Source: Corynebacterium falsenii (lineage in GTDB: Bacteria; Actinomycetota; Actinomycetes; Mycobacteriales; Mycobacteriaceae). Taken from it: a stretch of DNA of 64,000 nucleotides. The stretch spans positions 248,001 through 312,000 of the forward strand of contig NZ_CP083646.1 of NCBI RefSeq assembly GCF_020099275.1. The letters run 5' to 3'. The notes under the pieces are model-generated. The model was not told the origin of the DNA and searched no databases. It saw only the letters and a list, made by a program, of their open reading frames with translations. This document shows positions 39,139 through 60,409 of the stretch, one piece after another. Positions within the stretch are counted from its first letter, which is position 1. Every line of letters starts with the position of its first letter. Both the position numbers and the translations under genes were made by a program.

Positions 39139-39585
39139 TTAGCTCCCTAGCTTGCGCGCGGACGCAATCATGGGAATCTGCAGCGGCACGCGCGCGAAGG
39201 CGATCGCCTTCTTGGCCGCGTCCTTATCCCGCCAGTCCCACGCCATCTTCATATTTGCAGGCCACACCGCCGCGAGGAAGCCAGCAGCAGCCGGCGCCAC
39301 TGCGCTGCTCAGGTACGGTCGCAGCGTCGGAACGGCAGTCGCCACTCCAATCGACGCCGCCAGCCCCAGCTCCACCACACCACTCGCGTAGGTCCACTGC
39401 CTCGCCGTGCCGGGGATGCCTTCGGGCACAATCTGATCAAAGTTCTTCGGATGCACGAAGTGAAGCGTTCCTGCCGCGCCGAACACTCCCGCCCAGAGCA
39501 CAGAGCGCCACACCATCCCAGCGCTGCTCTTAGCTGCATCGCCGCTTGTCGTGCGCTGCAGGGCCGTCCTTATCGAATTCTTCAT
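39139..39585 (-). CDS. DoxX-like small membrane protein
   Basis: 148 residues from ATG 39585, which has GGGAAGGG upstream; ATGs at 39609 and 39624 are in frame. Four hydrophobic segments (about 25-45, 65-82, 90-107, 110-127) are visible. The motif TLHFVHPKNFDQIVPEGIPG is typical of the DoxX/MauE-like family. Function is not known; some relatives assist redox or membrane complexes. It is convergent with gatD (54 bp apart). Confidence 0.7.
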   Translation of the reverse strand: MKNSIRTALQRTTSGDAAKSSAGMVWRSVLWAGVFGAAGTLHFVHPKNFDQIVPEGIPGTARQWTYASGVVELGLAASIGVATAVPTLRPYLSSAVAPAAAGFLAAVWPANMKMAWDWRDKDAAKKAIAFARVPLQIPMIASARKLGS

Positions 39586-39846
39586 TGAGCCCTTCCCGCT
39601 ATTCTTCGTCATCAGTGTCACCATTGTCTCTTCATTCTCGTCGGCGCTTCATTGCCGTTGTCTCTGCGTCGTTGTCTCTGCATTGTCCCCACTGTAGACA
39701 CCTCCCGACACACGCACCGGGCGCCCAACCGCACTATCCCGCGCTTACCCCGCCCTTCCCCACCCTTACCTCGCCTTTACCGCGCCCTTCCGAACCCTTC
39801 CGCGTATCTTTCCAGCATTTTCCCCTGCACCTTCCCACCTCGCGAG

Positions 39847-39951
39847 GGCTTCACTTGTGACAATGTTGTGTTTTGCGGAAATTGGCTTTACAAAACCCCA
39901 GGTGGTCAAATATGAAGCAACACAAAACACAATATTGTCACATCTGAAGCC
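39847..39951. repeat. Palindromic element A (105 bp)
   Basis: Left arm TGACAATGTTGTGTTTTG (39858-39875) pairs with right arm CAAAACACAATATTGTCA (39923-39940), one G-T wobble. Outer arms GGCTTCA (39847-39853) and TGAAGCC (39945-39951) pair as well. The spacer is 47 nt and contains CCCCAGGTGGTCAAAT. Copy C at 60305 has the same length and outline; copy B at 40042 shares the spacer core in reverse. The gap 39586-39846 upstream is C-rich low complexity without a gene. Confidence 0.85.
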
Positions 39952-40041
39952 CTTGTCGCCCTCGTAGCCACATCGGCATAGCCTGCATTCCCCGGATTGG
40001 CGAGCACCGTAGGGCTCAAGCACCGTAGCGGCCTCTGCATT

Positions 40042-40130
40042 GTGTGCGAATGCCGTGTTTTGTGAGGTAGCAGATTTGACCACCTAGGCTTTTACAAACC
40101 GGGAAGTGGCAAAACACGGCATTCGCACAC
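40042..40130. repeat. Palindromic element B (89 bp, inverted relative to A)
   Basis: The arms are 21-bp perfect complements (40042-40062 with 40110-40130), ending TGTTTTG and starting CAAAACA as in A and C. The outer arm bases (GTGTGCGAATGCCG) are completely different from those of A and C. The spacer is again 47 nt. Its reverse complement shares AGGTGGTCAAAT with element A. It lies 90 bp from A. Confidence 0.82.
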
Positions 40131-40294
40131 GCCCCACCGCAAGCCACCACCAAAGCGCTCCCGGCGGGCGGCCCAAGACTCAGTTCCGTAGAGCGCAGCG
40201 GCTCAACACCCAGATCAACCCTGGGCTGCAGTTGGTGATAGACGCAGGTCAGCCCAGCGCAGCACGGCCAAACGCCCAGCCCAGCGCAGCACGA
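40131..40294. other. Intergenic stretch with a short direct repeat before recR
   Basis: AGCCCAGCGCAGCACG occurs at 40252-40267 and again at 40278-40293, 26 bp apart, directly downstream of the recR stop. No gene is seen. Confidence 0.5.
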
Positions 40295-40963
40295 CTACAC
40301 CCCCAGCACAGTGCGGCCGGCGAAGGCGCGGGACAACGTCAGCTCATCCACGAACTCCAGGTCCCCTCCCATCGGGATACCCGAAGCAAGGCGCGTCACC
40401 TTCAACCCAGGGAAATCGCGCAGCAGCCGGCCAAGGTAACTAGCCGTGGCCTCGCCCTCCGTGTTCGGATCCGTGGCGATGATGACCTCTTCGACCTCCG
40501 GCGCGGGTTCGAAGACGGGTTCGCCGGTGGTGGCGTCGAGTTGAGAAGAAGCAACATCGGGCAGCACACCACCGATACGCTGCACCAACGGCGTGACATT
40601 CAGCTCCTTCGGCCCGACCCCGTTGAGCGGATCCAACGCACCGCCGAGCACATGGTAGCGGCCACGGTACTCGGCAGTGCGCTCGATGACCTGGATGTCC
40701 TTCGACTCCTCCACCACGCAAATCACCGACTTATCGCGCGAGGAATCCGCGCAGATGCGGCACACATCTTCCTGCGAGATGTTGTGGCAGATGCGGCAGA
40801 GCGCAACGCCCTGCTGCAGGCGCCCGATGGCGGACTGCAGGCGCTCCACGTCCTCGGGTTCCTGCTCGAGCAGGTGCAACGCGATGCGCTGCGCGCTCTT
40901 CGGCCCGATGCCGGGCAGGCGAGAGAACTCGTCGATGACGTCTTGTAATGGTCCTTCGAACAA
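40295..40963 (-). CDS. recR: Recombination mediator RecR
   Basis: 222 residues. N-terminal helix-hairpin-helix [19 protein letters not shown], zinc finger [16 protein letters not shown], and a Toprim domain starting [14 protein letters not shown] with [15 protein letters not shown] roughly 20-residue insertion ([18 protein letters not shown]) makes it longer than the usual 200. It works with RecF/RecO at gaps. It is the last gene of the dnaX-ybaB-recR run, with 49 nt to ybaB. Confidence 0.96.
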
Positions 40964-57967: not shown

Positions 57968-59058
57968 CGCCAGGTCACGGGCTCCCGGCTCAGCTTGGCC
58001 AGGTCAAACGTGTCCCTCATGTGGGCAAGTATGGCGGCGGGCGGCGTGGTGGCGTCGGAGGAAAAAGACTGATCAACGGCCTTGCCGAGCGATGCGCGGA
58101 TCCACTGCATCCCCTCGCGCGCGCCGCCGGGTAGTTCGCGGAGGGTCACGGCGCCGTCGCGCTTGGCGAGTCGGCGCCCCTCCGGCCCGAGCACCAGCGG
58201 CACGTGCGCGTACTCCACGTCCGGCAAGCCCAGCAGATGCGCGAGATACGCCTGACGCGGCGCGGACGTCAACAGGTCATCACCGCGCACCACCTGCCCC
58301 ACGCCAGCGAGTGCGTCGTCAACCACGACGCACAGGTTGTAGGCAAAATCGTCAGCGTGACCGCCGGCGCCGTCATCGACCGCATCATCATCAGCGCGCT
58401 CGATGTTGCCGCCGCGGCGCAGCACCATGTCATCCACCTCGCCGCGAAACTCACCGCTATTCCGGCCGGGGTCGTGCGCCACTGCTACGCGCTCGCGCAC
58501 GGCCCACTCCCCTTCGATATTCTCCGACGCCGTCAGCCTCAACGACCACATCCGCCCCTGGGCCAACAAGTCGGCGCGGCGCTGATCGCGCTCGGCGTCG
58601 GTGAGGTTCCGGCAGGTCCCCGGGTAGCGACCGGGCAGGCCGTGGGGAGCGCGTTGGGCGTCGGCGATGTCTTTGCGGGAGCAGTAGCACTCGTAGACCA
58701 TGCCGGCATCCTGCAGCTGCTTGAGCGCTGCGCGGTAGTGGGGCATGTTCTCCTGCTGGCGGGCGATCGGGCCGTCGTGGGTGATGCCCAGGTCGGCGAG
58801 GTCTTCGAGCTGCCTGCTCGCCGCTTCGGCGGTGGAGCGCTGCGCGTCGATATCGTCGATGCGCAGGCGGAACGGGCGGTTCTCCGTGGTGGCGATGAGC
58901 CACGCGAGCACGGCAGTGCGCAGGTTCCCCAGGTGCAGGTCGCCCGAGGGACTGGGGGCATAGCGGCCTGCGGGGCGTCCGAGCGGAGCTGGGTTCTGAA
59001 GCTCAGGGCCTTGGGACCCTGGGTTCTGGGGAGTTGGGCTCGCTGGTGCATCGTTCAC
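57964..59058 (-). CDS. gluQRS: Glutamyl-Q tRNA(Asp) synthetase
   Basis: 364 residues from GTG 59058. The class I catalytic core has HIGH-like APSPSGDLHLGNLRTAV and KMSKS-like RRLAKRDGAVTL. Zinc ligands CYCSRKDI and YPGTC are present. There is no anticodon-binding domain, as expected for GluQRS, though at 364 residues it is longer than the usual 300. It attaches glutamate to the queuosine of tRNA-Asp. Its GTG overlaps the stop of the upstream DUF559-type gene, and tgt lies 1.5 kb away. Confidence 0.88.
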   Translation of the reverse strand: MNDAPASPTPQNPGSQGPELQNPAPLGRPAGRYAPSPSGDLHLGNLRTAVLAWLIATTENRPFRLRIDDIDAQRSTAEAASRQLEDLADLGITHDGPIARQQENMPHYRAALKQLQDAGMVYECYCSRKDIADAQRAPHGLPGRYPGTCRNLTDAERDQRRADLLAQGRMWSLRLTASENIEGEWAVRERVAVAHDPGRNSGEFRGEVDDMVLRRGGNIERADDDAVDDGAGGHADDFAYNLCVVVDDALAGVGQVVRGDDLLTSAPRQAYLAHLLGLPDVEYAHVPLVLGPEGRRLAKRDGAVTLRELPGGAREGMQWIRASLGKAVDQSFSSDATTPPAAILAHMRDTFDLAKLSREPVTWR

Positions 59059-60143
59059 ACCCACGCACGATACCCGCCGACCACCAGCTCCCACTGTCGG
59101 AACTCCCCCGCCTGCCGCTGCGCGTGCGGATGTCCCTGCCAGCGCGCCTGAGCCCCTGCCCCACCATGAGCCGCCGCGATGTCCCACACGGTCTGCGGAT
59201 CGTCGTAGATATCCCCATACACCCGCAGCACCCGAAACCCCTGGTTGAGGAGCATTTTCTCCCGGTCACGCTCGCTGTTGAGAGCATCGAAGGTGTAGGC
59301 AGGATCGTGCGCTTCCGGCTCCAACATCGCCGCCGCGTTCTCCCCTCCATCCGCGCCGCGGTATTTCCCGCGGCCGTCGTATTCGACGATGAGGCTGGAG
59401 GCGTCGTCGAATAAAAAATCCGGACGAGCGATGAACCCGCCAGCCTTGGAATACACCTGGGCCTGCTGCAACGGCGGCGGCAACCCGGCGCGCCACAGTT
59501 TCACCTTGAGGCCAGACTCGCGGGGGCTTTCCGAATGGCGGTTGGACAGGCGCAGGGCCTGGCGGAAGCGGGCGATGCCCTTGCAGCCCGCGAGTGTGAC
59601 GTCGGCGGCGCGGTGGAGTGAGTCCGTAGTCATTGTGCCGGTGCGTAGGGCGGCCTCGATGGCCACGACGGCGTCTTCGACACTGTGCCACGCCGCCAAC
59701 GTGAACGCGGCGAACACGGGATGGGCCACGGCGAACTCGAGGCCGTGCTCACTGTGGCGCGTGGCGGTGGACAGCGCGACGGCGGGCACGCTGCGCTCCC
59801 GCAACAGTGAACCGACGCGGACCCGGCCGGTTGAGCGGTGCCGCGCGGTAGTACGTCTTCCCAGTTCAACGGGCACATCGCGAAATCCGGTTTCGGTGGG
59901 CAGGTTGAGCGCTGCGGCCGCTGCCTTGCGGCACAGCACAGCCTTCGGATTGCTCGCGCCGACGGCCAGGGCGCGCAGCCGGAATCGCTCGCTCGGCCAC
60001 AAGCCGCTCCAGTGCTGCCGATCCGTGTAGATGCCATGCGCGAGTTTCACTACTTTGCCCTGGTGAAACGCCTTTCGGAGCCGGCTCTGCTCGGCGCTCC
60101 CCATCCGCGACGTCACCAGAAAAGGTCCCCACCCCTTAGTCAT
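59055..60143 (-). CDS. AbiEi-like antitoxin domain plus DUF559/Vsr-type nuclease fold
   Basis: 362 residues. N-terminus (about 1-80) resembles the AbiEi winged-HTH antitoxin domain (SRLRKAFHQGKVVKLAHGIYTD). The C-terminal half has SESPRESGLKVKLWRAGLPPP and RPDFLFDDASSLIVEYDGRGKY, the D...ExD pattern of DUF559/Vsr-like endonuclease folds. No AbiEii toxin lies beside it. The combination is common as a single gene in actinobacteria and its role is unknown. Coupled by a four-base overlap to gluQRS. Confidence 0.75.
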   Translation of the reverse strand: MTKGWGPFLVTSRMGSAEQSRLRKAFHQGKVVKLAHGIYTDRQHWSGLWPSERFRLRALAVGASNPKAVLCRKAAAAALNLPTETGFRDVPVELGRRTTARHRSTGRVRVGSLLRERSVPAVALSTATRHSEHGLEFAVAHPVFAAFTLAAWHSVEDAVVAIEAALRTGTMTTDSLHRAADVTLAGCKGIARFRQALRLSNRHSESPRESGLKVKLWRAGLPPPLQQAQVYSKAGGFIARPDFLFDDASSLIVEYDGRGKYRGADGGENAAAMLEPEAHDPAYTFDALNSERDREKMLLNQGFRVLRVYGDIYDDPQTVWDIAAAHGGAGAQARWQGHPHAQRQAGEFRQWELVVGGYRAWV

Positions 60144-60304: not shown

Positions 60305-60409
60305 GGCTTCACTTGTGACAATGTTGTGTTTTGTCGAATTCGGCTCTGCAAAAGCCCAGGTCGCATTTTTAGAAAATGCTCAAAACACAACATTGTCACA
60401 TCTGCAGCC
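60305..60409. repeat. Palindromic element C (105 bp)
   Basis: Left arm TGACAATGTTGTGTTTTG (60316-60333) and right arm CAAAACACAACATTGTCA (60381-60398) are perfect complements around a 47-nt spacer. Outer GGCTTCA (60305-60311) pairs with TGCAGCC (60403-60409) with one mismatch. The spacer contains GGCTCTGCAAAAGCCCAGGT and an inner hairpin GCATTTT/AAAATGC. It lies in the divergent promoter region of the DUF559-type gene and tgt (60144-60520), otherwise empty. Confidence 0.85.

Follow-up and report, generated by a model that had tools for sequence, protein, structure and literature searches.

Within a 64,000-nt stretch of Corynebacterium falsenii DNA (NZ_CP083646.1, positions 248,001 to 312,000; hereafter the window), two palindromic elements, A and B, lie between recR and a 161-aa open reading frame (ORF). 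On balance, we favor reading both as dispersed sites in double-stranded DNA that are targeted by a lineage-specific protein, one that joins an AbiEi-like DNA-binding part to a Vsr/DUF559-like nuclease. Our genome comparisons place A and B in a family of dyad-symmetric sequences with a conserved core near the dyad. Members of the family adjoin the gene for such a protein, their arms co-vary with it, and their presence differs between related genomes. On this basis we infer that the linked protein binds the sites, dimerizes, and cleaves and mobilizes them.

Element A (39856..39942, plus strand) consists of type-A arms at 39856-39875 and 39923-39942 around a 47-bp spacer, and its core, CCAGG at 39898-39902, has its W 1 bp off the dyad. 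Complementarity around it reaches 39845-39953. Element B (40043..40129, minus strand) has type-B arms, a 47-bp spacer and its core on the minus strand; it is without CCWGG because CCTAGG stands at 40083-40088 where CCCAGG is expected. This is a C to T difference within CCAGG and affects its inner C, which Dcm methylates and which on deamination gives a Vsr substrate. A third copy (60314..60400, plus strand), with perfect type-A arms and a CCAGG core at 60356-60360, is placed 171 bp upstream of a nuclease-like gene at 59055-60143. These were the only three long-spaced inverted repeats found across the whole window (spacer 25-60, score at least 11), scoring 22, 21 and 20; in five block-shuffled windows the same scan averaged 2.0 matches, none with a score of at least 15. 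A first-pass annotation of this DNA had described A and B as inverted repeats in opposite orientation whose arms end in TGTTTTG / CAAAACA and enclose exactly 47 nt, with AGGTGGTCAAAT common to both spacers, and all of this is borne out. Its statement that the outer arm bases differ completely came from an offset comparison: when aligned, TGTGACAATGTTGTGTTTTG and TGTGCGAATGCCGTGTTTTG are identical at 16/20 positions. The arm pairing that it took to be perfect is so for B (21/21), but A has one mismatch in its 20-bp arms and pairs at 90% over 31 bp.

The elements are members of a repeat family within the C. falsenii genome. Pattern, BLAST and covariance searches located the 87-bp element in 16 places at 12 loci of the 2.68-Mb genome, 15 of which align gap-free; the other, at 982 kb, is a weaker covariance match. 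All follow a layout of 20-bp inverted arms, a 47-bp spacer and a conserved core. In the 15-copy alignment the arms and a central CCCAGGT are conserved and CCWGG lies 1 bp off the dyad in 13 copies, element B of the window being one of the two exceptions. The first-pass annotation had asked whether a genome search might find only these copies, or arms decaying in most of them; the arms are instead kept, and it is most of the non-core spacer that varies. Two arm types, A and B, are present among the copies, together with hybrids carrying one arm of each at 237 kb and 392 kb. A type-A and a type-B copy lie within 150 bp of one another at 5/12 loci (288, 551, 597, 2361 and 746 kb, with B partial at 746 kb).

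The covariance-model search of related genomes proposed in that annotation extends the family across the genus. A model built from the 15 copies has matches in 65/242 Corynebacterium genomes at E 0.01 or better. It replaced an arm-pattern search because arms change between species; at 1 mismatch the arm pattern had matched 8 of 61 genomes, with 1-2 matches in each of the seven besides the window genome. At the loci fetched from part of the 65 genomes, elements are 59-122 bp long and are found singly, in pairs and in tandem arrays. Their arms are common to one genome or near-relative group and unrelated between lineages, and the spacer core is a CAAAACCCCAGGT-like sequence across lineages that contains CCWGG. 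CCWGG lies within 2 bp of the dyad in 82 of 125 sites of this cross-genus set, gene-adjacent loci included, and about 6 bp off in 39, most of which belong to two sets of related genomes (G097/G100/G110/G232 and G185/G251; G and L numbers are our handles for genomes and loci). Three duplicate loci (L087, L103 and L098) were dropped from this comparison and from the arm 10-mer and gap comparisons below. The frequency of CCWGG in this set is not evidence, since the set was required to have a core-like motif; for that, the gene-linked set described below alone counts. Arms can differ even at a single orthologous site, which has TAAACGCCGATATCGGCGTTTA-type arms in G002 and G061 and AAAAGACGATATCGTCTTTT-type arms in G089. 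G000 and G111 carry an element between the same two genes with differing arms, which fits either inheritance or two insertions.

The arrays and compound units take several forms. Tandem arrays were seen at L095 and L097 (G116, period ~104 bp), L124, L125 and L128 (G191), L143-L145 (G019) and L121-L123 (G020). In the G191 arrays every arm is itself palindromic, and adjacent units have arms in common. G185 and G251 (L254-L259, L264, L265) have a second hairpin, CCTGCATTTCCATAGACAAA...TTTGTCTATGGAAATGCAGG, which lacks the CCWGG core. It lies near a core-bearing element at several loci, making a repeated two-hairpin unit.

We found that the palindromes are associated with homologs of the gene beside the third copy. 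Nine of ten element-adjacent genes entered the alignment (A2; L085 was left out) from which a profile was made, and 184/242 genomes of the genus have at least one match to it. A long-spaced inverted repeat lies within 250 bp of the gene at 49/70 homologous loci from 47 genomes, compared with 2/30 recR control loci, one of which is element B itself (Fisher P 2e-9). In genomes outside the profile source the count is 35/52. As the 70 loci rank high against the element-linked profile, linkage may be less frequent among remote members. Up to 100 bp from the gene there are 2.86 repeats per kb, compared with 5 in ~136 kb at 500-1500 bp. Many of the gene-linked palindromes are upstream, the arrangement also seen in the window, and many others are downstream of the gene or on both sides (both within 350 bp at 9/70 loci). 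In a search up to 350 bp from the gene that did not require the core, CCWGG was present in 44/64 gene-linked spacers, where 1000 shuffles gave a mean of 8.1 and a maximum of 16. In 41 of these 44 repeats its distance from the dyad is at most 2 bp (uniform expectation 5.4), although the lengths of gene-linked repeats vary from 53 to 138 bp.

The core of the gene-linked copy itself differs in several genomes. The same arms accompany a different core, TTTCCCCAGG or TTTTCCCAGG in the gene-linked copy versus AAAACCCCAGG in dispersed ones, in G097 (L252) and G265 (L230 vs L061), and CCTGG in the gene-linked copy versus CCAGG in dispersed ones in G061 (L172), G139 (L173), G002 (L174) and G191 (L189). 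No obvious difference was seen in G000, G010, G111 and G116. A differing core could be the mark of a self-protected site.

The gene beside the third copy (59055..60143, minus strand) encodes a 362-aa protein and is the only homolog found in this genome. In its predicted structure, residues 1-201 match the AbiEi antitoxin and residues 204-331 match the Vsr endonuclease and the catalytic domain of I-Bth0305I. The model thus points to an AbiEi-like DNA-binding fold followed by a putative nuclease fold with conserved acidic residues (Vsr / EDxHD / DUF559); these matches span residues 1-331, and the tool does not strictly exclude an unlisted fold. Sequence support for the two-domain assignment is weak. 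The C-terminal half has a weak match to 3hrl, an endonuclease-like protein (E 0.0042), and a homolog in G198, located between two elements, passes the DUF559 cut-off. The expected nuclease residues, E209, D242, E254, D256 and K260, are invariant or nearly so among homologs. Protein searches returned 9 and 20 matches, most of them without names, an NCBIfam search gave no meaningful match, and no Y1 transposase family was matched in Pfam at E 1 for eight homologs. One homolog in G100 (G100:C1:1154746-1155322) is present in pieces only; that genome also has intact others.

If this protein recognizes the palindromes, the arms might be expected to follow it, and they do. With ten gene-adjacent loci dropped, 14/24 gene loci have arm 10-mers in common with fetched elements of their own genome, compared with 31/1876 gene-locus/other-genome comparisons. 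Among 49 of the 50 gene loci with a palindrome (L178 was left out), arm similarity correlates with identity of the N-terminal half (rho 0.20, 0/500 permutations). It tracks the AbiEi-like half more closely than the nuclease half: for pairs up to 60% identity the values are 0.154 (0/500) for the N-terminal half and 0.068 (14/500) for the C-terminal half. Arms are recognizably alike (score at least 10) in 16/23 pairs with N-terminal identity of at least 60% and in 0/1153 pairs below it.

The presence of elements also differs between relatives. In the window genome, 788 bp separate the end of recR from residue 40 of the 161-aa ORF, with A and B in between. In seven of nine relatives, among them the five whose RecR is most similar, the same interval spans 9-275 bp; in G023 and G027 it spans 756 and 669 bp and holds no such element. 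Because the interval is either short or element-free in relatives, A and B were probably gained in this lineage. Elsewhere, G110 and G097 carry three elements at a position whose sequence in G100 is unrelated, and G089 has a Fic-family gene (L108, 1449-2911) between two elements where G002 and G061 carry one element. About 50 bp beside each of the elements flanking this gene are also repeated.

These findings suggest a model in which one protomer would bind each inverted arm, covering ~20 bp, and the two nuclease halves would meet near the dyad, where CCWGG sits. A nick or cut near the dyad could start repair copying or recombination. Through this, sites may spread inside one genome or from one genome to another, at times taking along a gene enclosed by two of them. 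A lineage whose DNA-binding half has changed would change its arms accordingly and retain the core. The nuclease may be spreading its sites now, or may have done so once. Several observations weigh against this model. Dozens of copies are present in G185 and G251 (58 and 59 matches by BLAST, counting both strands and the second hairpin), yet neither genome has a homologous gene at E 0.1; either it was lost there or a different factor is at work. Type B is without a gene of its own in C. falsenii, 20/64 gene-linked repeats are without CCWGG, and 21/70 genes are without a palindrome. No clean empty site was found in G185 versus G251 or in G110/G097/G232 versus G100, though differences were seen, and the model leaves the pairing of A with B unexplained.

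The protein could alternatively be a regulator, with the gene-side palindrome serving for autoregulation, the dispersed copies forming a regulon or titrating sites, and the nuclease half secondary or inactive. Such a role has precedent, as AbiEi and Rv2827c autoregulate via 23-bp inverted repeats in their promoters according to PMC7319586. The co-variation of the arms with the protein and the many palindromes upstream of the gene fit an operator as well. We nonetheless consider this unlikely. Palindromes downstream of the gene or on both sides are frequent, the nuclease residues are conserved, and an operator has no need of CCWGG near the dyad. Dispersed clusters are moreover rarer in divergent gaps than control gaps would predict (7/82 vs 17/68, P 0.0074), and therefore they are not simply promoter operators. 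This count excludes the ten gene-adjacent loci, relies on gene calls from a home-made GC-based caller, and leaves 10 of 92 clusters unclassified (5 at an edge, 1 far away and 4 within called ORFs). A miniature inverted-repeat transposable element (MITE), that is, a non-autonomous transposon whose arms are recognized by an ordinary insertion sequence transposase, would likewise be short, repeated, intergenic and bounded by inverted ends, with presence that differs between relatives, and the hybrids and pairs suggest recombination between copies. We think this improbable, since the conserved core and changing ends seen between lineages are the reverse of a MITE family. In this genome every arm-like place with at most 2 mismatches falls in an 87-bp copy or in one partial B, and no longer element with these ends was seen. 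Nor was a consistent target-site duplication seen in the flanks of this genome's copies, and no clean empty site was found for comparison.

The reading to which we give the least credence is a structured RNA or transcribed hairpin selected for its pairing. A structured RNA was one of three proposals of the first-pass annotation, the others being a DNA cruciform target and a small non-autonomous mobile element; its argument was that pairing is kept while arm sequence changes. Between species this pattern goes much further than could be seen from the window: symmetry survives complete arm change between lineages. Among the 15 copies of this genome the paired cells and covariation score lie above all 500 shuffles. 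Within the genome, however, the covariation is essentially one split between arm types A and B, the count of pairs changed on both sides was matched or exceeded in 49/500 shuffles, and the two hybrids persist with broken pairs. No family reached its gathering score in an Rfam scan of window positions 39600-40400, where seven of the eight sub-threshold matches were to microRNA families and one to a long non-coding RNA family. CCWGG stays near the geometric dyad across repeats of 53-138 bp, which RNA pairing does not require. The mismatched hybrids, the Rfam result and the placement of a DNA motif with respect to the dyad, which is the clearest constraint, thus disfavor RNA. Of the original proposals, those of a DNA target and of a small element of mobile type are supported, though in the form of a dyad-symmetric site in double-stranded DNA that has a conserved CCWGG core and a candidate enzyme, and extrusion of a cruciform is not needed.

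The neighbors of A and B are context for the proposed target-site system. recR (40295..40963, minus strand) adjoins element B and lies outside the system, and the 161-aa ORF (39139..39624, minus strand), with no Pfam match at E 0.01, adjoins element A. Just downstream of recR, positions 40250-40303 hold two tandem 27-nt copies of CAGCCCAGCGCAGCACG... that are 85% alike. RecR of G130, G099, G206, G128, G016 and G253 matches in two pieces, approximately residues 1-150 and 140-220, lying ~90-170 bp apart within one open frame, which suggests an in-frame insertion.

The protein family is common outside Corynebacterium as well, with at least one profile match in 175/200 genomes across the order. 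Among 29 loci outside the genus, a repeat lies within 350 bp at 21, 14 and 11 for scores of 12, 14 and 16, compared with 5, 2 and 1 of 30 recR loci, a rough comparison because these control loci come from another group, Corynebacterium. Spacers are 15-24 in 15 of the 24 outside-genus repeats within 350 bp at a score of at least 12, and none of the 24 contains CCWGG. A scan of the genome collection for the core, in which records near the window may be omitted, returned one record, from Enterorhabdus sp. P55 (NZ_QWKK01000031.1), far outside the order. There, a 154-bp palindrome with 26-bp arms (L269, 6755-6908) has the exact Corynebacterium core at its dyad. It was found with a wider spacer limit, having been missed with spacers below 70, and a crude motif check recognized no nuclease-like gene in the 8 kb.

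We tentatively suggest, with more doubt than confidence, that these elements represent a new class of selfish or recombination system in prokaryotes, in which two-part AbiEi-Vsr nucleases act on lineage-specific, CCWGG-centered dyad sites. A nick or cut would spread solitary sites and set genes, such as the nuclease gene or the Fic gene, between two of them, and sites would be replaced jointly as the DNA-binding half changes. Genomes would in this way come to contain paired copies, arrays and units resembling cassettes. Through a looser form, in which spacers are short and CCWGG is missing, the class would reach into other genera of the order. Sequence derived from CCWGG is where Vsr acts, and owing to the CCWGG core the enzyme may respond to cytosine methylation or to T:G mismatches. 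The link to defined sites opens the function of these proteins to direct tests, since a candidate recognition sequence is visible beside many of the genes. In the open-access literature we recognized no account of such an element family or of palindromes at AbiEi/DUF559 genes, which is weak evidence of novelty.

Parts of the system resemble what is known. The closest structural matches of the predicted C-terminal half are Vsr and the EDxHD homing endonuclease I-Bth0305I, and DUF559 nucleases are likewise among the nearest known proteins; the Corynebacterium protein differs from all of these in its extra DNA-binding half and its long, symmetric, multi-copy sites. Its N-terminal half shares a predicted fold with AbiEi, of the type IV toxin-antitoxin system AbiE, and with Rv2827c. 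Both bind 23-bp inverted repeats (PMC7319586), AbiEi half-sites being 23 bp, and recognition of ~20-bp inverted repeats is likewise predicted here. Unlike AbiEi, the Corynebacterium protein is fused to a nuclease-like half and has many sites away from its own promoter. MITEs share the short, repeated, intergenic format with inverted ends; they differ in that the Corynebacterium ends vary by lineage around a conserved core, and no parent transposon with these ends was seen in this genome. In plan, the system resembles that of repetitive extragenic palindromes (REPs) and their associated tyrosine transposases (RAYTs). In PMC8266576, PMC2817692 and PMC3116915, REPtrons are described as dispersed intergenic palindromes with a linked DNA-processing gene that they often flank, the palindromes being lineage-specific and following the protein. 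The Corynebacterium palindromes are similarly dispersed and intergenic, adjoin a cognate gene and follow it between lineages. We do not file the family as a REPtron because its enzyme is similar to other folds and its sites are of greater length: the linked protein looks AbiEi-/Vsr-like, whereas the REPtron protein (TnpA-REP) is of the HUH type, and the sites measure 59-122 bp, exceeding the ~20-40 bp given for a REP in PMC3733652. Their long spacer, with its core close to the dyad, fits double-stranded recognition. Copies also number from one to dozens, compared with hundreds of REPs. The Corynebacterium system would add a second, different type of enzyme to the question of how palindromic repeats persist and change jointly with their proteins, so far studied with RAYTs.
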